Source: an uncultured Anaerolineae bacterium (GTDB lineage: Bacteria; Chloroflexota; Anaerolineae; Anaerolineales; Villigracilaceae). From it: a stretch of DNA of 64,000 nt. Of the stretch, positions 1 to 8,258 are shown one piece after another. Position numbers and translations under genes: made by a program. Every line of letters begins with the position of its first letter. Position 1 is the stretch's first letter. A model generated the notes under the pieces. That model was given only the letters and a program-made list of their open reading frames with translations. It was not told the DNA's origin and did not search any database. The stretch is taken from positions 1 through 64,000 of the forward strand of contig CAIJPN010000041.1 of the NCBI GenBank assembly GCA_903822545.1. Direction: 5' to 3'.

Positions 1-293
1 CCGATTTTCAGCAGGCCCAGCATCGGCGTCCAGGGTTTCATCGCGCGGGTCTCGACAAACTCATTGCGGTTCGTTTCGATAGACTTCACCAGCACCTGCG
101 CCGATTCTTTCCGCACGTCACAAACCTGCCCTGATACCTGTCCCGCTGTTTCGAGCGATTTGATTGCACGCTGGAGCGCTTCTTCGCCTCGCCCGGAGAG
201 AATTACCCTCGCCCCGGCTTTGACTGCCGCTTCAGCGACCGCGTACCCGAACCCGCGCGTCGAACCGGTGATGATGACCTCTTTACCCGTCAG
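1..293 (-). CDS. Short-chain dehydrogenase/reductase (SDR)-like, partial and possibly decayed
   Basis: The frame shows a classical SDR start: a beta strand followed by a TGSTRGFG nucleotide-binding motif, an Arg (SGRGEEAL) that usually selects NADP, and a CDVR segment. It runs off the left edge. Two things are odd. There is no ATG, GTG or TTG near the expected N-terminus: the frame opens directly after the TAG stop of the peroxiredoxin gene, and the best candidate is a CTG at 291-293 about 11 bases after AGGAAA. The NNAG motif expected about 20-30 residues after CDVR is not seen before the edge. It may be a remnant, a gene using a CTG start by translational coupling, or the victim of a sequence error. 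The SDR fold is well supported; intactness is not. Confidence 0.5.
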   Translation of the reverse strand, partial: MTGKEVIITGSTRGFGYAVAEAAVKAGARVILSGRGEEALQRAIKSLETAGQVSGQVCDVRKESAQVLVKSIETNRNEFVETRAMKPWTPMLGLLKI

Positions 294-299
294 AGCTGC

Positions 300-773
300 C
301 TAGGTTTCCTGATTCAGGTTGTGAAGAACATTGAGAAGTTCTGCATTGGATGGGATATCGGTAGCATCATGCCCATAATGGACAAATCGCACCGTCCTGG
401 TTTTGTCGATGGTGATTTGGGCAGGCATGCGCCCGAATTTGAAGATTTTGACTTCCTGCCCGTACAGTTTCAAAACACTGTGGGTTGGGTCGGGCAGGCC
501 GGTGAAGGGCAGGTGATGCTTCGTCCAGTAGTTGGAGAACGCTTTGGCATCTTCCGGGCCGAGCACCAGGATTTGGGTGTCTTCGGCTACAAACTTGTCA
601 TATTCGCGGCGCAACTGCGCCATGTGCTGTTGGCAGTACGGTCAGAAAAAGCCGCGATTGAAGACCAGCAGCACGTTTTTCTTGTTTTCAAAGTCGGAAA
701 GGCGTATGGTCTGGCCGTTGAAATCGGTCAGGCTGAAATTGGGGGCGGGGGTGTTGAGTTCGACGCGAGCCAT
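300..773 (-). CDS. Peroxiredoxin-like (AhpC/TSA) protein, probable selenoprotein with in-frame TGA
   Basis: Read from the ATG at 771-773 the frame gives a complete thioredoxin-fold peroxiredoxin-like protein of 157 residues, provided the TGA at 642-644 is read as an amino acid (residue 44). It lies in the motif RGFF-U-PYC, where family members have the peroxidatic Cys of a CPYC pair; the second Cys is residue 47. Sequence homologous to the family continues without a break on both sides of the TGA, which argues for selenocysteine rather than termination. A standard gene caller would start at Met51 (621-623) and lose the active site. The start is four bases from the DUF1475 stop (TAATATG), in a DegV-DUF1475-peroxiredoxin operon. 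The likely role is reduction of peroxides or other oxidants. Selenocysteine machinery is not in the window. The alternative is a nonsense mutation. Confidence 0.75.
608..644 (-). promoter_or_regulatory. Candidate bacterial SECIS element
   Basis: On the coding (minus) strand the TGA at 644-642 is followed 20 bases later by a hairpin: GGCGC (621-617), loop AGTT, GCGCC (612-608). The loop has G as its second base followed by T. The G lies about 26 bases after the TGA. This fits the usual bacterial SECIS pattern of a short stem-loop just inside the coding region with a G among the first loop bases. A weaker alternative stem (GCCA with TGGC) overlaps it. Confidence 0.55.
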
Positions 774-774
774 A

Positions 775-1104
775 TTAATAAGCCCGATTTCCCAGCCAGA
801 ACTTTTTCCAGTCGCCGCCGGAGGCTTGCAGGGCCAGGAAGGCGTACAGGCTCATGGCAAAAGCTCCCAGCGTCATAACAGCCAAAATCCAGAGTGCGGT
901 TACGGGGAGGGATTTTTCACGGTATACGATCCAGCCAGAGAAAAGCGTGAAGCCGGTATACAGGTCAACGAGGGAGACGATCCCCCAGGGCATGGCAACC
1001 AGTTTTGCGCCCTCAGCGCCGAAATCCCCAACAGCGAAGGCATATCCAATGATCCCGGCCATGATGAGCGCGCCGAGGAGTGTAATGGTTTTTGCGAGTT
1101 TCAT
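775..1104 (-). CDS. DUF1475 family membrane protein
   Basis: A 109-residue protein with about three hydrophobic segments (roughly residues 5-25, 38-62 and 70-95), resembling the DUF1475 family of small membrane proteins of unknown function. An upstream in-frame start at 1152 exists, but it lies inside the DegV gene and adds a polar tail. The ATG at 1104 begins exactly at the first hydrophobic segment and sits one base after the DegV stop (TAACATG), so translation is probably coupled. It lies between DegV and the peroxiredoxin-like selenoprotein candidate, suggesting cotranscription. No function can be assigned from sequence. Confidence 0.7.
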   Translation of the reverse strand: MKLAKTITLLGALIMAGIIGYAFAVGDFGAEGAKLVAMPWGIVSLVDLYTGFTLFSGWIVYREKSLPVTALWILAVMTLGAFAMSLYAFLALQASGGDWKKFWLGNRAY

Positions 1105-1105
1105 G

Positions 1106-1954
1106 TTATCGAATCCTTTTCTTGCGGATGGCGGCAAACCCGAGCGCGCCAACGCCCAGGTGTGCCCCCAAAACCGGGGTGATTTGCACCGGGAGCGGCT
1201 CGGCTTCCTCGGGGAAATAAGCGCGGACGGTTTCGATGAGCGTTCCAGCTTCTTCGTGGATGCCCGCGTGGAGGACTTCCAGCCGCTCGAAGGGTGCGTA
1301 CTCTTTGAGCCAGGCCATCAGCTGCGCGGTGGCCTTTTTCTGGGTGCGGACGCGCTCGACCGTCGATTTGCCCATGTGCATGTGCAGCAGCGGCTTGATT
1401 TTGAGAAACTCGCCGATGTGGGCCACGGCGCTGTTCATGCGTCCGCCGCGACGCAGGTATTCGAGCGTTTTGAGTGAGGCGAAAACGTAGGTGCGGGTCA
1501 TCAGCTCTTTGAGTTCATCCAGGATTTCCTCGAGGGCGTGACCAGCGCGAGCCATTTGTGCCGCTTTCTCAACCAGGAATCCCGTCCCGAGGCTGAGTTG
1601 GCTGGAGTCGAGCACTGTCACCGGGATGCGGGTGAACTCCTCGGCGGCTTTGCGCGCCACATTGATGGTGGCGCTCAGCGTTTCGGAGATATGAATGCTC
1701 AGGATGGCTTTGGCGCCCTCGTCGGCCAGGCGCTCGTAAATCTGGCGGAAGGTTTCGGGGCTGGGTGCGGCAGTTTTGGGGAAGGGGTTCATTGCCGGAA
1801 GGCGCTCGTAAAACATCTCGCGCGAGATATCTACGCCATCTTGCAGGGTTTCATCCCCAATGTGAATGTTAAGCGGCAGGACAGTGATTTCCAGGTTGCG
1901 GACAACCGCTTCGGGTAGGTCGCAAGTGCTGTCAGTAACAATACGTAGGGTCAT
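1106..1954 (-). CDS. DegV family fatty-acid-binding protein
   Basis: A 282-residue protein with the DegV N-terminus (IVTDSTCDLP), the following LPLNI and DGVDIS segments, a SxxPSP-type fatty-acid-binding loop (KTAAPSPETF), an SxxLSATINVA segment and a C-terminal HLGVGALGF segment. Length is normal for the family. DegV proteins bind a fatty acid; in Firmicutes the FakB members present it to FakA kinase for phosphorylation. No fakA is in this window. It is the first gene of a leftward group with DUF1475 and the peroxiredoxin-like gene. The start has only a weak purine-rich site (AAAAAGAG) before it. Confidence 0.9.
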   Translation of the reverse strand: MTLRIVTDSTCDLPEAVVRNLEITVLPLNIHIGDETLQDGVDISREMFYERLPAMNPFPKTAAPSPETFRQIYERLADEGAKAILSIHISETLSATINVARKAAEEFTRIPVTVLDSSQLSLGTGFLVEKAAQMARAGHALEEILDELKELMTRTYVFASLKTLEYLRRGGRMNSAVAHIGEFLKIKPLLHMHMGKSTVERVRTQKKATAQLMAWLKEYAPFERLEVLHAGIHEEAGTLIETVRAYFPEEAEPLPVQITPVLGAHLGVGALGFAAIRKKRIR

Positions 1955-2078
1955 TTTTTCTCTTTTTGGCTCTTCCGTTTTATCGTGTACGGATGCAGGG
2001 GTGGCATCTACAAGTTTTCGCGAAAAACAGTAGCACCAACTATATTAAGTCAAACGTTTCGCAACATTTTGGCCAAAG

Positions 2079-3116
2079 TCAGGAGACTTTAGAGTTCAGT
2101 TCGCGCACAGGGTTGGGTTGTTGCTTGAAGCGGTCGGCAATCCAGATACCCAGCGCAATCAGGCCGGCCATCAGGAAGGCCACCAGGTATTCAATCAGCG
2201 GGATGCGGATGATTTCATTAAGCTGCACCCAGCCTTTCCAGTTGTAAACCACCAGCGCAGCGGCAACATATCCCAAACCAACCAGCCAGCGGGTTAGCCT
2301 GCTCCAGCCCAGGCCATGCATCTGTGAGATCACGAACATGGCCGCAAAACCGAAAGCGAACATCGTCCAGATTTCACCGCCCTGGAAAATGGCGACTACT
2401 GTCCCGTGAAAAAGTACGGTCACTTCCTGAACCAAAGTCCACCACTTATTAACGTGGATGCGCGTCAGGAACAGGCTGCCCTGGAGCAGCAGCATGAACA
2501 TATAGAAGAAGCCCATCAGGTGCCCAATCGGGTTGGCCATCGGGTGGAACCAGAATGTGTAAACGGTAGCCCAGGCAAACAGGTAGCCGTGATATTTGCG
2601 GACGAAGGCCACCACGCGCTTTGAAAGCGGTGCAGGCTTGCCAAAGAACATCCCCCGGCGCTTGTTTTCCATGATCAAGATGGCGCACAGCATCAGGATG
2701 ACAGAACCCTGCGAACTCCAAACGGGTGTATCCTGCGCCAGGCCGTCGTACCATACCTGGGTCTGGATGAGATGCAACACGATAAAGAATGCGTTAACTC
2801 CCATCGCCCAAATGTTGACCGGGTGCAGGCCGGTACTGTATTTCTGCACGCGAGTCTGGGCGTAGTAGATCAGGCACCAGAGTGCAATCTGGTGCAGGGC
2901 GTAGAAACCCCACGAGGTCAGGCGTGTCCACAGGGTCACATCCTGCGGCGGGAGCTTCCAGTAGTACCACAGCGGGCCAGTATCGGGCAGCAGTTGTATG
3001 GCGTTAAGCCGCTCGCCTGCCAACCAGATGATGGCGGTGAAAACCAGGGAGAAGGCCAGCCCACCCCAAAGGGCGATCTGCGCAGAGCGTGGGGTGGAGA
3101 GCAAGTCTTTGTTCAT
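2079..3116 (-). CDS. Polytopic membrane protein of unknown function in the carotenoid/CarH locus
   Basis: A 345-residue protein with about nine or ten predicted membrane segments. Several His and Trp residues sit in or near them (ALHQIALW, FIVLHLIQ, WFHPMANPIGH, VLFHGTVV). I do not recognise the family. The ATG at 3116 is chosen over the start at 3149 because AGGA lies about seven bases before it and the extra residues are polar. It follows the CarH-type regulator on the same strand, about 80 bases downstream with a hairpin in between, and so is the last gene of the crtI-DUF1295-carH set. Membrane-bound pigment or lipid modification is an inference from position only. Confidence 0.6.
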   Translation of the reverse strand: MNKDLLSTPRSAQIALWGGLAFSLVFTAIIWLAGERLNAIQLLPDTGPLWYYWKLPPQDVTLWTRLTSWGFYALHQIALWCLIYYAQTRVQKYSTGLHPVNIWAMGVNAFFIVLHLIQTQVWYDGLAQDTPVWSSQGSVILMLCAILIMENKRRGMFFGKPAPLSKRVVAFVRKYHGYLFAWATVYTFWFHPMANPIGHLMGFFYMFMLLLQGSLFLTRIHVNKWWTLVQEVTVLFHGTVVAIFQGGEIWTMFAFGFAAMFVISQMHGLGWSRLTRWLVGLGYVAAALVVYNWKGWVQLNEIIRIPLIEYLVAFLMAGLIALGIWIADRFKQQPNPVRELNSKVS

Positions 3117-3158
3117 TAGGGTTCCTTTTTGTGGATAAGTGCATGGCAATTTTTAACT

Positions 3159-3194: not shown

Positions 3195-4529
3195 TCAGTC
3201 TTGTGACCGTTTAATCAGCCACTCAACCACTGGCTGCCCAGCTGCGCCGAGATGCTGCTCAAGGGCGCTGGCATAAGCGCGCAGGTAAAAAGATAATACT
3301 TTCAGGTCAAGCTGGTTGCCTTTAATCATGGCAGTCAGCCAGTCCAACTCGCTGTCGATGTAACTTACATCCCCGAGCTGGAGCGCGGCAATCAGATCAT
3401 TGCCCATAAACTGGTTGGCTGTCACCAGGTATGCCTGGTCGAATCCGGGCTGGGCCAGGGCTTCATTGAGCGTGGATTCAATCGACGGGCGCTTTAAAAT
3501 GAATTTTTCCAGGATTTCAGCGTAATTTGTGGGCTGGGTGGTAACCTTTGGCGCTGGTTTCGGAAACGCCAGCAGCGACTCGATCTGCCAGATGGCTGCA
3601 TCCAGGCTGTGGCCGAGAAAATGAGCCGGGATCGATTTAACAATGTTAGGCAGGGTATTGAATATCCGACCGCCAAAAGCTACATTGCCACCATGCGAAG
3701 CCAGCAGCATGGCAGTCTGTTGGAGCGTAGAAGCTGTGCTCAGCTGTTGGGATGAGAGAATCACCAGGTCGGCATGAACAGCGCGGATGGTTTCTTCGAA
3801 ACGGTTGGCGGGGACATTCGCGCCAAGGTAAATCACAATCAGGCCGCGGCGGCGCAGGAAAAGTGTCAGCATCAGCGGGGTGAAGGTATGCCACTCATCA
3901 GCAGGGCAGCCTATCAGGATGGTCTGGTTGCGTGTGGGGGCTGGGGATGCTGCGATCAGCGTATCCAGCCGCCGCATGGCCAGCGCTGAAGCAAAATGCT
4001 CCTGCTGGACACTGGCGCGGTTCTCGTACCACAGCATCCCAATCTCAGCCATGCCGTGCTGGAGAATGCCCGTGCAAACCTGCTCGATTGGGTAGAGCGA
4101 GAAAGCCTGGTTAAGCACCTTGTCGGCGGCGATTTCGTTGTAGGCCATACAGGCTTCCAGCCAGAGAGTGCGCAGCCCATCCAGGCTGGTTACGGTAACC
4201 TGCCCGGAAAGCATTTGCATTGGCTGGAGCGGTTTCACCATAGCGGGAACCGTTGTCAGCGCGGATTCGATCAGCATTTCCTGGCCCGGTGCGCAGACTT
4301 CTTTCCACATTTCCACTGCGCGGGAGATGCTCAAGCCTTCTGCCTGGCGTGCCACCAGCCATTTAAGCAAGGCCATATCAAATTCCGAGTACAACCGGTG
4401 ACCGCCCTGGGTGCGCTCAGGTGCTGGGATCCCGTAGCGACGTTCCCAGGCGCGCAAAACATCGGGTTTCAGGCCGGTTTCATGCAAGACAGCTTTCAGA
4501 TTGTAGGTGGGGTTTTTGCTGATTGGCAT
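3195..4529 (-). CDS. carH: CarH/LitR-type MerR-family repressor with B12-binding photoreceptor domain
   Basis: A 444-residue protein. Residues about 9-75 are a MerR winged helix (AVLHETGLKPDVLRAWERRYG, then GGHRLYSE). Residues about 115-200 are a four-helix bundle carrying W167-x9-E177-H178, the Wx9EH signature that caps adenosylcobalamin in CarH. Residues about 203-325 are a Rossmann-type B12-binding domain with E212-x-H214, the usual axial-histidine motif. About 110 extra helical residues follow, which are not in the best-known CarH proteins. CarH binds DNA as an AdoCbl tetramer in the dark and lets go when light breaks the Co-C bond. It lies in the crtI transcription unit, and CarH-type repeats occur in the crtI-crtB intergenic region. 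The ATG at 4529 is preceded by GGAG. Confidence 0.88.
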   Translation of the reverse strand: MPISKNPTYNLKAVLHETGLKPDVLRAWERRYGIPAPERTQGGHRLYSEFDMALLKWLVARQAEGLSISRAVEMWKEVCAPGQEMLIESALTTVPAMVKPLQPMQMLSGQVTVTSLDGLRTLWLEACMAYNEIAADKVLNQAFSLYPIEQVCTGILQHGMAEIGMLWYENRASVQQEHFASALAMRRLDTLIAASPAPTRNQTILIGCPADEWHTFTPLMLTLFLRRRGLIVIYLGANVPANRFEETIRAVHADLVILSSQQLSTASTLQQTAMLLASHGGNVAFGGRIFNTLPNIVKSIPAHFLGHSLDAAIWQIESLLAFPKPAPKVTTQPTNYAEILEKFILKRPSIESTLNEALAQPGFDQAYLVTANQFMGNDLIAALQLGDVSYIDSELDWLTAMIKGNQLDLKVLSFYLRAYASALEQHLGAAGQPVVEWLIKRSQD

Positions 4530-4623
4530 TGGTACTCCGTTTTGCCATCGTTCCCGGCTCATCCCCAGCGGGGATAGCATGTGCGTTTCTCCCAGATGGA
4601 GAGGCGTGGGGTGAGGGGATGTC

Positions 4624-5490
4624 TTATAGTTTCGGTATCAAAACCGGCGTATTTTTCTTGTAATTCTCGTAATCTGCCTGGCCGCCCCATTTTTTGTCGG
4701 CTTTTTGCTCGAGCAGGGGTACGCCGCTAACGCGGGTGAGCAGCAAGGTGACGAAGAGCGGGGAGATGAGCGCGACCCACTGCCAGCCTTGCAAGACAGG
4801 GATGGCGATAATCGCCACACCCACCCAAAGTACGATTTCTCCAAAATAGTTGGGGTGGCGTGATTTGCCCCACAGACCGGTGCGGATGAATTTGCCCTTG
4901 TTGGCCGGATCGGCGTTGAAGCGGCTTTTCTGGTTATCGGCGATGACTTCGAAGGTGAAACCGAAAATCCAGACCAGCAGGCCGATGATGGCGAAGATAT
5001 CAAGCTCTTTGCGTGCGCTGGAGGTGATGGCCACCCAGGCCGCAGCGGCGGTGAACGTAACCCACAGCGCCTGGATCGTCCAGACGTTCAGGAAACGGAT
5101 GAAGGATGGCTTCAACTCGTCGAAGCGGTCATCCTTGCCAGCCTTGTGCACGCGGCGAAACAGGAAAACCCCCAGCCGGATGGCCCAAATCAGCACCAGC
5201 GCAAACAGCAGCAGGGCGCGGGCATCAGCGCCGGGGCTGAGAAAAAGCGCCAGGGCGGTGACGGAGATGTAGGTGAGACTTCCAGTAATGTCAAAGAATT
5301 TTTCAGTCTGTTGGGCAAAGGCCGGGATGAAAGCAATCCACTGGATGATGAAGGCCAGCCCAACAGCCAGGGCAAAAACAGGCATCCCGGCAAAGGTGCT
5401 TCCATTCTGGCCGCCAGCCAGGGCAACCAGGATGCCGACAACCACCAAAATGGGAAATACGATTAAAGATTTGCGATCAGTTGGGTTCAT
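4624..5490 (-). CDS. DUF1295 (steroid 5-alpha-reductase-like) membrane protein
   Basis: A 288-residue protein with about seven hydrophobic segments. The C-terminal half carries the conserved DUF1295 features: KSRFNADPANKGKF, TGLWGKSRHPNYFGEI and a closing DYENYKKNTPVLIP. The family resembles 3-oxo-5-alpha-steroid 4-dehydrogenases and isoprenylcysteine methyltransferases and is taken to act on lipophilic substrates, but the substrate is generally unknown. It follows crtI on the same strand after a strong hairpin and precedes the CarH-type regulator. A role in modifying an isoprenoid or lipid under light stress is plausible from context only. Confidence 0.85.
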   Translation of the reverse strand: MNPTDRKSLIVFPILVVVGILVALAGGQNGSTFAGMPVFALAVGLAFIIQWIAFIPAFAQQTEKFFDITGSLTYISVTALALFLSPGADARALLLFALVLIWAIRLGVFLFRRVHKAGKDDRFDELKPSFIRFLNVWTIQALWVTFTAAAAWVAITSSARKELDIFAIIGLLVWIFGFTFEVIADNQKSRFNADPANKGKFIRTGLWGKSRHPNYFGEIVLWVGVAIIAIPVLQGWQWVALISPLFVTLLLTRVSGVPLLEQKADKKWGGQADYENYKKNTPVLIPKL

Positions 5491-5514
5491 TTGGGCTTTC
5501 TTTGGGGAATAAAA

Positions 5515-5553
5515 CCTGGCCCCTGCCCTGCCTTTGGCGGGGCAGGGGCCAGG
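5515..5553 (-). terminator. Strong hairpin and T-rich tail after crtI
   Basis: An 18-bp stem (one G-T pair) with a three-base loop, CCTGGCCCCTGCCC on one arm and its complement on the other. On the minus strand it is followed by TTTTATT. It lies in the 69-base gap between crtI and the DUF1295 gene, so it probably terminates or attenuates transcription after crtI. Confidence 0.75.
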
Positions 5554-5559
5554 TGGATT

Positions 5560-7095
5560 TCAGGCCTTCACTGGCTTGGTATTTTTGACCAAGTTTTGTA
5601 CAGGTATTGTACCATTTTCTTTCAAAATCCGCTCAGTTGTTAAGCGTGCTGAAAGGAGTACGATCGGCAAACCGGTGCCAGGATGGGTGGACGCGCCCGC
5701 AAAATACATGTTTTTGTACTTTGCATGGCGGTTTTGCGGGCGCAGGTAGCCGACCTGCCAGAAGTTATGGCTCAGGCCAAAGGCGGCGCCCTTGGCCAGG
5801 TTGTAATCTTGCTTCCAACTCAGCGGGGTGTGAATCATCTCGAACTTGATGTGTTCACGCAGGTCAGTGATGCCCATTTCCTTTTCCAGCCGGGCAAAGA
5901 CTGTTTCGCGCGCGCGGCTGACCATTTCGTCCCAATCCTGTTTGTTGGATGGGTCGAGGTGGCCAACCGGCACCAGCACGTAGAGCGTATCCTGCCCATC
6001 GGGCGAGGCCGCCGGATCGATGCGGGCTGGGGCGTGAACGTAAAAACTCGGTTCTGCGGGCAAGCTGTGATCGTTGAAAATCTGGTCAAAGGAGGCTTTG
6101 TAATCGCCAGCCAGGAAAACGTTGTGGGGCGCAACTTGCTCATAACGTTTATCTACACCCCAGTAGAACATGATCGTTGAGCAGGTGTAGAGCTTTTCGT
6201 CCAGCTTTTTGGCTTCAGTGCGATCAGGCAACAGTTGGTCATAGATGTAAGGAAGATCAGCATTACCGACAAAAATATCGGCGGAATAGGTTTTCCCGTT
6301 TTCCAGTTCGACCGATTCAACCCTGGAACCATCGACCCGTATCTGTTTTACCGGGGCATTGTAGATGAACTTCACCCCCAGCTTTTCCGCCACCCGCACC
6401 AGCGCCTGAATCCCGGCATACATCCCGCCGATTGGGAACCACACACCTTCAGCAAGTTCTGTGTACTGGAGCAGGGAATACGTGGCCGAGGCGTCATACG
6501 GGCTCAGGCCGAGATACATGTTCTGGAAGGTAAAAGCAGCCTTGAGCCTTTCATCCTTAAAATAGCGCCCTGTGTTGCGATAGTGCTTATCCAGTGCCTT
6601 CAGTTGGAAGATCAGCGGCAGGTTCGTCAGGCTGAAATATTCAAAGATGTTGAAGAAGTTGCGACCAACGAACTTTTCAACCGAAATCTTGTAGTGTTTT
6701 GCGCCCTCGGCGATGTAATTCAGGAATCCGGTAAAGGCAGTTTTTTCCACCTTTTCGAGCTGTTCCTGCATCTGGCCGATATTGGATGTCAACTGGAGTT
6801 GCAGCCCATCTTCAAAATGGACTTTATAGGTCGGGTCGATGCGCTTCAGTTCGAGATGGTCTTCCAGCTTTTCGCCCAGCGAAGCGAAGGTTTCTTCCCA
6901 GATTTCTGGCATCAGGAAAAGGGTAGGGCCAATATCAAACCGGTGACCGTCGCGGGTGAGCTGGCTGCAGCGACCACCGGGGGTGGCGTTCTTTTCAAGC
7001 ACGGTGACATCGTATCCGTTGCGGGCAAGGCGTCCGGCGGTGGCAATTCCACCAATTCCGGCACCGATGACAATGGCAGTAGGTTTGCGGGACAT
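5560..7095 (-). CDS. crtI: Phytoene desaturase CrtI
   Basis: A 511-residue FAD enzyme. It has the N-terminal dinucleotide fold GAGIGGIATAGRL near residues 12-24, followed by VLEKNATPGGRC, and the C-terminal CrtI FAD signature YFAGASTHPGTGLP near residue 470. Length matches the bacterial CrtI family, which introduces double bonds into phytoene to give neurosporene or lycopene at the membrane. The diverging neighbour is phytoene synthase, so the pair supplies the core C40 carotenoid pathway. The promoter region carries a consensus sigma-70-type promoter overlapped by CarH-type repeats. The exact number of desaturations cannot be read from the sequence. Confidence 0.93.
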   Translation of the reverse strand: MSRKPTAIVIGAGIGGIATAGRLARNGYDVTVLEKNATPGGRCSQLTRDGHRFDIGPTLFLMPEIWEETFASLGEKLEDHLELKRIDPTYKVHFEDGLQLQLTSNIGQMQEQLEKVEKTAFTGFLNYIAEGAKHYKISVEKFVGRNFFNIFEYFSLTNLPLIFQLKALDKHYRNTGRYFKDERLKAAFTFQNMYLGLSPYDASATYSLLQYTELAEGVWFPIGGMYAGIQALVRVAEKLGVKFIYNAPVKQIRVDGSRVESVELENGKTYSADIFVGNADLPYIYDQLLPDRTEAKKLDEKLYTCSTIMFYWGVDKRYEQVAPHNVFLAGDYKASFDQIFNDHSLPAEPSFYVHAPARIDPAASPDGQDTLYVLVPVGHLDPSNKQDWDEMVSRARETVFARLEKEMGITDLREHIKFEMIHTPLSWKQDYNLAKGAAFGLSHNFWQVGYLRPQNRHAKYKNMYFAGASTHPGTGLPIVLLSARLTTERILKENGTIPVQNLVKNTKPVKA

Positions 7096-7164
7096 GGGGC
7101 GAGACTCCTTAAGCTGAAGATCAAAAGTCGAAAATTAAATGGCAATTCTTGAATAACTGCTGTG

Positions 7165-7194
7165 ATTATAGCTATTGTCTATATTTTGTCAAGG
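7165..7194 (-). promoter_or_regulatory. crtI promoter overlapped by two CarH-type 11-bp repeats
   Basis: On the minus strand TTGACA (7192-7187), a 16-base spacer and TATAAT (7170-7165) form a full consensus promoter for crtI. Two adjacent 11-mers, CCTTGACAAAA (7194-7184) and TATAGACAATA (7183-7173), both fit nnTnnACAnnn, the direct-repeat pattern reported for CarH operators. They cover the -35 box and most of the spacer. Confidence 0.7.
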
Positions 7195-7208
7195 TATATT
7201 GCGTTTTT

Positions 7209-7249
7209 CTTATACAAAACCTTGACAATTCTTTATTATTCAGTAAAAT
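7209..7249 (+). promoter_or_regulatory. crtB promoter overlapped by two CarH-type 11-bp repeats
   Basis: TTGACA (7222-7227), a 16-base spacer and TAAAAT (7244-7249) form a promoter for crtB. Two adjacent 11-mers, CTTATACAAAA (7209-7219) and CCTTGACAATT (7220-7230), both fit nnTnnACAnnn. The second contains the -35 box. The arrangement resembles the divergent crtI side. Confidence 0.65.
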
Positions 7250-7313
7250 AAAGCTCAACAGTGCGGCATTTATTGAACAGCCGACTATGAAACTAGCACA
7301 CCAGGAGACGAAT

Positions 7314-8258
7314 ATGCAGGCACATTGGGAACACCGCTTAATTGCACTCGCCGGGAATACTGTTAACCCTTCCACCCGACCGATATTTTCTTACTGGGCT
7401 GGCGATGCCTCCCTGGCGAAAGCTTACGCCTTGTGTGGCAAAGTCGCTGCCCACCACAGTAAATCATTCTATATGGCCAGTGGCCTGCTCCCCGAAGAAA
7501 AACGTTCGGCTGCCCGTGCATTGTATGCCTTCTGCCGTATCGTAGATGACATTGTCGATGAAGGCTCAGTGGTTGGCCGCGATGCTGAACTGGATTACTG
7601 GCGCAGCATTGTCCAGGGTGTTCAGCATCCCCGCGCTGACGATCTGGTTGCCCAGGCCTGGGTTGATGCGCGCGCCCGCTACCATATCCCGGCGCGTTAT
7701 GCCCAGCAGCTGATCGATGGCGTGGCCCGCGACCTGCGCCAGAACCGTTACCAGAGCTTTGACGACCTGGTCACCTATTGCTACGGGGTCGCTTCCACTG
7801 TTGGGCTGATGAGCATGTATATCGTTGGTTTCAAAAGCCAGGAGGCGCTGCCGTACGCCATCAAACTCGGTGTGGCGCTACAAATGACAAACATCCTGCG
7901 CGATGTCGGCGAAGATTTCCGCAATGGCCGCATCTACCTGCCGCAAGATGAGCTGAGTGCCTACAACATCAGCGAAGCCGACCTGGCAAAGGGTGAAGTC
8001 ACTCCCAGGTGGCGTGACTTTATGAGATTCCAGATTTTCCGTGTGCGTGAATTGTATGCCGAAGCCCAAAAAGGCATTAAATTCCTCGAGCGAGATGGCC
8101 AGCTTGCCATTAGCGCATCTTCTGGTTTCTACCAGGGCATCCTGGATTCCATTGAAGCTAACGACTACGATGTTTTTAGCCGTCGCGCCAGCCTGTCGGC
8201 CTGGGAAAAGGTTCGGCGCGTGCCGGGGCTGTGGCTTTCGACCCAGTTTGGTGTGTAA
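7314..8258 (+). CDS. crtB: Phytoene synthase CrtB
   Basis: A 314-residue squalene/phytoene synthase. It has the two Asp-rich motifs that bind diphosphate through Mg: DDIVD at residues 78-82 and NILRDVGED near residue 190. Other family segments are SFYMASGLLP and RALYAFCRIVDD. It condenses two geranylgeranyl diphosphates to phytoene. The ATG at 7314 is chosen because AGGAG (7303-7307) lies six bases before it; longer in-frame starts at 7149 or 7287 reach into the promoter region. It is transcribed divergently from crtI with paired CarH-type operators between, so both genes are probably light-induced. Confidence 0.93.
   Translation: MQAHWEHRLIALAGNTVNPSTRPIFSYWAGDASLAKAYALCGKVAAHHSKSFYMASGLLPEEKRSAARALYAFCRIVDDIVDEGSVVGRDAELDYWRSIVQGVQHPRADDLVAQAWVDARARYHIPARYAQQLIDGVARDLRQNRYQSFDDLVTYCYGVASTVGLMSMYIVGFKSQEALPYAIKLGVALQMTNILRDVGEDFRNGRIYLPQDELSAYNISEADLAKGEVTPRWRDFMRFQIFRVRELYAEAQKGIKFLERDGQLAISASSGFYQGILDSIEANDYDVFSRRASLSAWEKVRRVPGLWLSTQFGV

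Follow-up and report, generated by a model that had tools for sequence, protein, structure and literature searches.

A predicted UxxC selenoprotein with a peroxiredoxin fold, encoded near CarH-like and carotenoid genes in an Anaerolineales genome

On the minus strand of the first 64,000 nucleotides of contig CAIJPN010000041.1 (the whole stretch analyzed here, referred to as the window), a reading frame from 773 to 300 contains a single internal TGA at 644-642, which raises the question of whether this codon ends a short gene or encodes selenocysteine (Sec), and what the protein would do in the latter case. The translation, MARVEL...NRGFF-U44-PYC...NQET*, carries the active-site motif RGFF-U44-PY-C47, and a match to the Pfam AhpC-TSA domain (PF00578; 83 bits, cut-off 26) spans residues 8-130 of the product, here called PrxU. 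Homology thus extends to both sides of the TGA, as the original prediction had proposed for a frame otherwise open. It had also expected standard annotation to yield a 107-residue fragment, and the open reading frame list indeed gives only the fragment 300-623 in this frame. As its active-site selenocysteine is coded by a stop codon, PrxU is missed by ordinary gene calling, and gene callers that take TGA as a stop will report a PrxU fragment without the active site. The locus contains the following features.

1-299, minus strand: SDR (short-chain dehydrogenase), truncated at the window start and lacking an in-frame ATG, GTG or TTG after the Prx stop
300-773, minus strand: gene for PrxU, a predicted Prx-like UxxC selenoprotein of 157 residues, from ATG to TAG
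607-622, minus strand: bacterial SECIS-like hairpin UGGCGC-AGUU-GCGCCG, loop at +26 to +29 after the TGA
633-635, minus strand: TGC codon, Cys47, second residue of UxxC, invariant in a 43-row alignment
642-644, minus strand: TGA codon, predicted selenocysteine 44, aligned with TGA in 68 subfamily-A loci (counting that of the window) and with a Cys codon in three more
775-1104, minus strand: DUF1475 protein, 1 nt upstream of PrxU
1106-1954, minus strand: DegV family protein (family match)
2079-3149, minus strand: protein that looks membrane-like by eye, matching no Pfam or NCBIfam model, with a 124-nt gap to DegV
3195-4580, minus strand: MerR and B12-binding regulator, CarH/LitR-like, with a Wx9EH motif (WYENRASVQQEH)
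4624-5490, minus strand: DUF1295 protein (domain match)
5490-5559, minus strand: long GC-rich inverted repeat followed by TTTTATT, terminator-like, between crtI and DUF1295 (by eye)
5560-7095, minus strand: CrtI, phytoene desaturase family (NCBIfam TIGR02734, 496 bits, cut-off 238)
7149-8258, plus strand: CrtB-like protein of the phytoene/squalene synthase family, reaching no NCBIfam cut-off, divergent to crtI, true start probably later
7165-7196, minus strand: crtI promoter TTGACA-16-TATAAT (7192-7165) with an overlapping tandem CarH-type direct repeat TACCTTGACAA AATATAGACAA (7196-7175)

The machinery for selenocysteine insertion, on which the original prediction depended, is present in the source genome assembly (5.5 Mb, 237 contigs). 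Profile searches recovered selA at 530 bits (cut-off 268), selB at 322 bits for its best piece (cut-off 242) and selD at 351 bits (cut-off 125), and tRNA-Sec scored 73.3 bits against Rfam (gathering score 47) and was assigned the anticodon TCA by ARAGORN. The UPYC motif and the PF00578 domain agree with the proposed class of Prx-like UxxC selenoproteins. The selD gene (L018, G000:C17:135378-136310) has an in-frame TGA of its own, read by eye in the context CAG-U-ASK.

PrxU has many relatives. Matches at E 1e-15 or better were found in 106 of 251 genomes of the same order, 44 of 400 genomes drawn from across the phylum, not all of them members of this order, had a match at E 1e-25 or better, and the relatives among named genomes are five Anaerolineae or Chloroflexi MAGs, Brevefilum fermentans being one of the five. 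We fetched 115 loci (30 + 5 + 80), a part of all matches, and counted 113 after leaving out L051, which does not differ from L022 in the part compared, and L110, an ordinary Bcp-like protein with Thr at the site. Subfamily A, to which the window belongs, comprises 68 Sec loci including the window's own and three Cys loci; subfamily B (RGFxUPxCRAQLAR type) comprises 28 Sec loci; and subfamily C (RExxUMQC type) comprises five Sec and nine Cys loci. An alignment of Cys homologues around residue 44 had been suggested as a check, and the three subfamily-A Cys forms (L096-L098) do have Cys at this site, reading CPFC. The fetched loci of subfamilies A and B comprise 96 Sec and three Cys forms, a proportion obtained with a Sec query and so not an unbiased census. 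The source genome contains a second Prx-like Sec gene (L056, G000:C71:19814-20260), a member of subfamily B with its own TGA. UxxU forms were considered and set aside: two TGA codons were reported in G007, G093 and G142, and the two loci examined (L026, L029) have one, at Sec44, within the aligned protein.

The gene and the trait occur together across the order. Of the 251 genomes, 97 have a TGA-bearing match of subfamily-A or -B type, and a selA match is present in 96 of these versus 105 of the remaining 154; the lone exception among the 97, G151, is 88% complete. The 97 genomes are the 106 minus nine, namely those with stop-free matches only among the matches listed (G008, G051, G102, G146 and the Cys genomes G016 and G030), G001, which has a Cys form and a subfamily-C Sec gene, G244, which belongs with subfamily C, and G213, whose locus lies outside the fetched set; for genomes outside the fetched loci, the in-frame TGA is taken as reported by the genome search.

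Downstream of the TGA, the window contains a hairpin of -9.3 kcal/mol whose loop begins 26 nt past this codon, where the usual range for a bacterial SECIS is about 16-37 nt. It has the G in the apical loop by which a bacterial SECIS downstream of a UGA is recognized, a loop G whose conservation is shown in a figure legend of PMC1088965. Taken singly, the window sequence provides weak evidence for such an element: the stability of the 61-nt region is no greater than that of its dinucleotide shuffles (z = 0.30), and 3.7% of 2000 synonymous-codon shuffles contain a hairpin that is as stable and has a G at the loop start.

Across the relatives, the conservation of this hairpin goes far beyond chance. 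Bases +26 to +29 are AGTT in all 68 subfamily-A Sec loci, bearing out the SECIS-type hairpin about 26 bases after the TGA that had been predicted from the window, and standard pairs form at the five inner positions of the stem in 68, 65, 67, 68 and 68 of these loci (336/340 cells), with compensatory stem changes in L032 and L114. The Leu codon at +10, which supplies the UU of the loop, is TTG in 68/68 subfamily-A Sec genes versus 205 of the 999 Leu codons elsewhere in the same genes. Subfamily B has a hairpin of the form GCGCGC-AGUUG-GCGCGC, the loop of which starts at +17, nine bases closer to the TGA, and 165 of 168 of its pair cells are standard. The loop start is AGTT in 22 of the 28 subfamily-B loci, the remaining six having CGTTG (three), AGCTG (one) or ATCTC (two, L056 and L083); the second Prx-like Sec gene of the source genome is thus one of two with a putative SECIS lacking the AGUU loop. 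The Sec members of subfamily C retain pairing through different bases, as seen in L108 versus L109.

Shuffling of synonymous codons gives a similar picture. Mean hairpin strength, native versus shuffled, is -8.99 versus -1.21 kcal/mol in subfamily-A Sec forms, -9.79 versus -1.85 in B and -8.34 versus -2.17 in C, and the Cys forms give -2.60 versus -2.45 in A and -2.74 versus -0.74 in C. Single sequences reach 0.05 or less in this test in 51/68 subfamily-A, 26/28 subfamily-B and 3/5 subfamily-C Sec loci, and in 0/3 subfamily-A and 3/9 subfamily-C Cys loci; as a counterpoint, folding somewhat stronger than in synonymous shuffles is seen in the subfamily-C Cys members too. The Fisher values of the hairpin and codon comparisons are indicative only, as they treat related and hence non-independent sequences as independent. 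A chance hairpin, on which the window alone would not have been decisive, is rejected in view of the comparative data.

The Cys forms provide what amounts to a natural experiment. Codon +10 in subfamily C is TTG in 5/5 Sec members (L106, L108, L109, L112, L113) and 0/9 Cys members (L099-L105, L107, L111), so that over subfamilies A and C it is TTG in 73/73 Sec and 0/12 Cys members, the latter having 11 other Leu codons and one Met. In the tree of the 113 proteins, whose bootstrap is not fully settled, the three subfamily-A Cys forms make up one clade on a long branch inside the Sec clade, where they join L073, a Sec form from the same genome family (f2). At E 1e-60, selA goes unmatched in G016 and G030, two of the three genomes concerned; in G001, the third, selA matches reach 5.1e-68 at best, and this genome also encodes the subfamily-C Sec gene L106. 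We infer that the subfamily-A Cys forms arose by reversion from Sec to Cys with loss of the trait, and the apparent reversion in genomes without a selA match, together with the switch away from the TTG codon, sets Sec and Cys versions of one protein side by side.

These comparisons bear directly on what the TGA means. If it were a real stop, a sequencing error or the mark of a pseudogene, the 107-aa fragment or nothing at all would be made, and it is true that the listed open reading frame ends there and that the window's hairpin alone is not outstanding. But 68 subfamily-A, 28 subfamily-B and 5 subfamily-C loci share the TGA at this alignment position, with protein conserved on both sides and a conserved hairpin behind it, and we give this explanation practically no credence. 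It is likewise very improbable that suppression or an altered code has UGA decoded as Cys, Trp or Ser, as the genome has a tRNA-Sec with anticodon TCA along with selA, selB and selD, the TTG codon and AGUU loop found in all subfamily-A and -C Sec members are missing from the Cys homologues, and selA is without a match at the above threshold in two of the three subfamily-A Cys genomes. PrxU is very probably a genuine selenoprotein, judged from these genomic comparisons; SelB would bind the AGUU hairpin, with its loop 26 nt downstream, and bring Sec-tRNA to UGA 44.

A comparison of PrxU with structurally related redox proteins indicates how Sec44 may act. The AlphaFold2 model (pLDDT 91.9) has a predicted Prx fold, with Bcp1, AhpE and ResA as Foldseek neighbors (TM 0.86-0.87 for 3drn and 1xvw, 0.72-0.78 for ResA). 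In the phmmer alignment to AhpE (5c04, FHPLAFTGIC, F37H mutant), Arg40, Sec44 and Cys47 take the places of the PxxxTxxC Pro, Thr and Cys, and the alignment to Bcp1 (3drn) puts them in the same positions, the deposited chain having Ser at the last position. With Arg40 for Pro and Sec44 for Thr, PrxU lacks the PxxxTxxC/U motif and thus by motif is not a peroxiredoxin. In the alignment to ResA, Sec44 and Cys47 fall on the two Cys of CxxC. The original prediction had located the TGA at the peroxidatic Cys, and this part must be revised: Sec44 aligns with the Thr of PxxxTxxC or the first Cys of the ResA CxxC, and it is Cys47 that aligns with the peroxidatic Cys. Pro117 does not discriminate between the two families, as it faces Pro in both ResA and Bcp1 in a low-confidence part of the alignment, and Gln119 faces the Arg of the Bcp1 LPARIT stretch in the low-confidence alignment tail. 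From motif and fold, PrxU would be a thiol:disulfide oxidoreductase or a thiol-dependent hydroperoxide reductase, in which the Sec44 selenolate is the likely attacking group, on a disulfide or a peroxide, and Cys47 would resolve the resulting selenenylsulfide or selenenic acid, with re-reduction presumably by a thioredoxin-like partner.

The gene neighborhood adds a possible physiological setting. A DegV-DUF1475-Prx operon had been proposed, and these three genes do adjoin, but the run is longer than that, with the SDR gene following and the membrane-like protein, the CarH/LitR-like regulator, DUF1295 and crtI lying upstream. DegV-DUF1475-PrxU-SDR forms a tight unit downstream of the CarH-like gene and the carotenoid genes. 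The SDR frame of the window lacks an ATG, GTG or TTG ahead of its nucleotide-binding motif and follows the Prx TAG in phase. Because of this phase, a fusion of SDR and PrxU by TAG read-through was considered; it was rejected, as the SDR gene is in another frame with an ATG overlapping the Prx end in L052, L022, L054, L053 and L055, and lies further downstream in L049. The window SDR may start at a CTG at 293-291, or there may be a local assembly error. In L054, a DUF3159 protein, a Rieske [2Fe-2S] protein and a DUF4345 protein are encoded between DUF1475 and PrxU (1560-3004); this Rieske protein could be a redox partner of PrxU, and none was found in the 40 subfamily-A regions examined.

The 3195-4580 protein contains MerR DNA-binding and B12-binding domains and the Wx9EH motif, which marks CarH (PMC8156234). 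Of its ExHx2G...GG B12 motif, EWH and GG are present and Thr replaces Gly, a Gly also missing in 11 of 12 relatives, and we call the protein CarH-like only, as its score against the NCBIfam CarH model NF052513 falls short of the cut-off (131.5 versus 400 bits). Synteny was surveyed around 40 subfamily-A genes and 20 control subfamily-B genes, in flanks of up to 8 kb to either side, some of them cut by contig ends. Within this distance, a CarH-like gene is present in 12/40 subfamily-A versus 0/20 subfamily-B loci (Fisher 0.005), or in 9/40 versus 0/20 at 37.8% identity or more (Fisher 0.023), and the same comparison gives 9 versus 0 for crtI, 8 versus 0 for DegV and 11 versus 0 for DUF4345. A long CarH (38% identity or more), in one long copy each, was detected in 24 of 41 genomes and lies within 8 kb of PrxU in 10 of the 24, or in 9 of 23 after subtraction of the window, which raised the question. 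The genomes with a long CarH near PrxU come from three families (f1, f13, f14) and differ in gene order: L139 and L154 have crtI, carH and small genes leading into prxU in the same direction, separated by alignment gaps of at most about 110 nt; L143 has carH and prxU side by side and divergent; and in L146, carH is divergent from a gene without a Pfam match, which we take to be TspO-like, that precedes prxU.

CarH is reported to bind tandem 11-bp repeats of the form nAnnTnnACAn (PMC8156234). The 64-kb window contains one perfect tandem pair, over the -35 of the crtI promoter at 7196-7175 (minus strand), and a triple repeat matching 13/15 at 5617 (minus strand) lies inside the crtI frame and was taken as chance. 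A perfect pair is present in 6/9 loci with a long CarH, 5/31 other subfamily-A loci (among them L150, L160 and L167, with a shorter CarH-like gene) and 0/20 subfamily-B loci. Immediately before prxU, a perfect pair or a triple of at least 13/15 occurs within 300 nt in 6 of 68 subfamily-A Sec loci (L028, L035, L045, L125, L126 and L128, the last at 15/15) versus 0/28 in subfamily B and 0/17 in the others, with a shuffle expectation of 0.1 or less; this test is partly post hoc in that the L126 and L128 repeats had been seen beforehand, with thresholds set earlier. At 300-1500 nt upstream, repeats occur in 4/66 subfamily-A versus 0/28 subfamily-B loci, and one of these four, the triple of L036, looks like chance and was not accepted as a CarH operator. 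The two repeat analyses partly cover the same loci (L143 is L028, L156 is L128 and L167 is L126). In L045, L125 and L128, which are L174, L157 and L156 of the synteny sample, CarH-type repeats lie no more than 140 nt ahead of the prxU start, and the flanks of up to 8 kb contain no CarH-like gene.

In the window itself, no CarH-type repeat was found before the DegV-PrxU unit. The repeat at crtI lies about 6.4 kb upstream of PrxU, separated from it by the terminator-like inverted repeat after crtI, which falls outside the inverted-repeat search with its loop limit of 8, and by the 124-nt gap before DegV. The link of the window gene to light consequently draws on synteny and on the relatives. The 14-mer TTGACWWAATATAG occurs exactly twice in the window, at 2040-2053 (minus strand) upstream of DegV-PrxU and at 7179-7192 (minus strand) in the crtI promoter. 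As proof of co-regulation this was rejected, since the pattern was built from the very sites that give two matches against 0.04 expected, and it is kept as a lead; the site at 2053 lacks the ACA of the CarH repeat and is outside the 12 best window sites by a promoter matrix derived from the relatives.

Two alternatives to our reading of PrxU function deserve weight. PrxU could act as a true peroxiredoxin in which Cys47 attacks the peroxide and Sec44 resolves, given that its fold is nearest to those of Bcp1 and AhpE (TM about 0.87) and that Cys47 lines up with the AhpE peroxidatic Cys. In thioredoxin-type UxxC proteins, however, the nucleophile is the first residue, and the substitutions of the PxxxTxxC motif, along with Gln119 opposite the LPARIT Arg in the low-confidence tail, make this rather unlikely. 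A stronger contender, though still one we would bet against, is that the CarH and carotenoid link reflects drift of gene neighbors and that PrxU is a general housekeeping redoxin outside light control: 28 of the 40 subfamily-A loci have no CarH-like gene in the fetched flanks of up to 8 kb, some of which are cut by contig ends, the window operator is far from PrxU, and a CarH-type repeat occurs within 1.5 kb upstream in only 10/68 loci, one of them (L036) probably by chance. Drift fits poorly with a long CarH within 8 kb of PrxU in 10 of 24 genomes, the window's included, in several gene orders and three families, and with repeats directly before PrxU in subfamily A versus none before its 28 paralogues. 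In some relatives, prxU adjoins a B12 light sensor or the predicted binding site of that sensor, which suggests a role in defense against light-driven oxidative stress.

Taken as a whole, the data are best explained, with considerable confidence, by PrxU being a Prx-fold, thioredoxin-type UxxC selenoprotein that would most probably function in the repair of light-driven oxidative damage, for instance of peroxides arising from singlet-oxygen attack. We lean slightly toward the further proposal that a B12-based light sensor controls this selenoprotein, so that the Sec form would be a regular member of the CarH regulon in Anaerolineales, made with the carotenoids in the light and reducing products of photo-oxidation. 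In relatives with operators, the CarH-like repressor would let prxU be expressed in the light; such control is an inference from gene context, and its case is weakest in the window itself. Anaerolineales are mostly regarded as dark-living anaerobes, and the proposal, if true, ties their selenium use to light defense. It also offers a candidate physiological role for the Prx-like UxxC family, photo-oxidative defense under a CarH-like regulator. Extracts of a 2006 survey give three selenoproteins in three families for the phylum, Chloroflexi (PMC1794560), to which PrxU and its relatives would add a large, well-supported Sec subfamily.

In conclusion, PrxU fits a protein type that is already known, the predicted family "Prx-like thiol:disulfide oxidoreductase, UxxC", which appears with PF00578 and UxxC/UxxU in Table 1 of PMC13188914, as Prx-like in PMC1088965 and as Prx-like 1 in PMC2398784. 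Like this family, it has an AhpC-TSA domain, UxxC where Sec-peroxiredoxins have TxxU, and a SECIS-like hairpin downstream; unlike the family as presented in extracts of these three papers, the PrxU group belongs to Chloroflexota, is predominantly of the Sec form among the fetched loci and in some members occurs in a CarH and carotenoid context. The best NCBIfam match is the SelL-related redox protein NF040769 (residues 9-105), which would not name PrxU, as the score of 76.1 bits is under the curated cut-off of 120, and unlike SelL-related proteins PrxU has UxxC rather than UxxU. It shares a predicted fold with the AhpE and Bcp/PrxQ peroxiredoxins but is without their PxxxTxxC, and it resembles the ResA-type thiol-disulfide oxidoreductases in fold and in the aligned place of CxxC. 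ResA is membrane-anchored and extracytoplasmic, and, unlike ResA, PrxU has no signal sequence apparent by eye. Within open-licence PubMed Central papers, we found neither the Sec-dominated subfamily nor a selenoprotein in a cluster of this kind, and extracts of PMC9402790, a paper also on "selenoprotein", name LitR/CarH only as a cobalt protein; the CarH and carotenoid context therefore appears to be the new part. As in the CarH/LitR B12 photoreceptor regulons of carotenoid genes described in extracts of PMC8156234, the window has a MerR-B12 protein with Wx9EH and tandem nAnnTnnACAn repeats over the crtI promoter, and it differs from them in a regulator whose ExHx2G lacks the Gly, as in most of its relatives, and in the selenoprotein that its cluster would encode.
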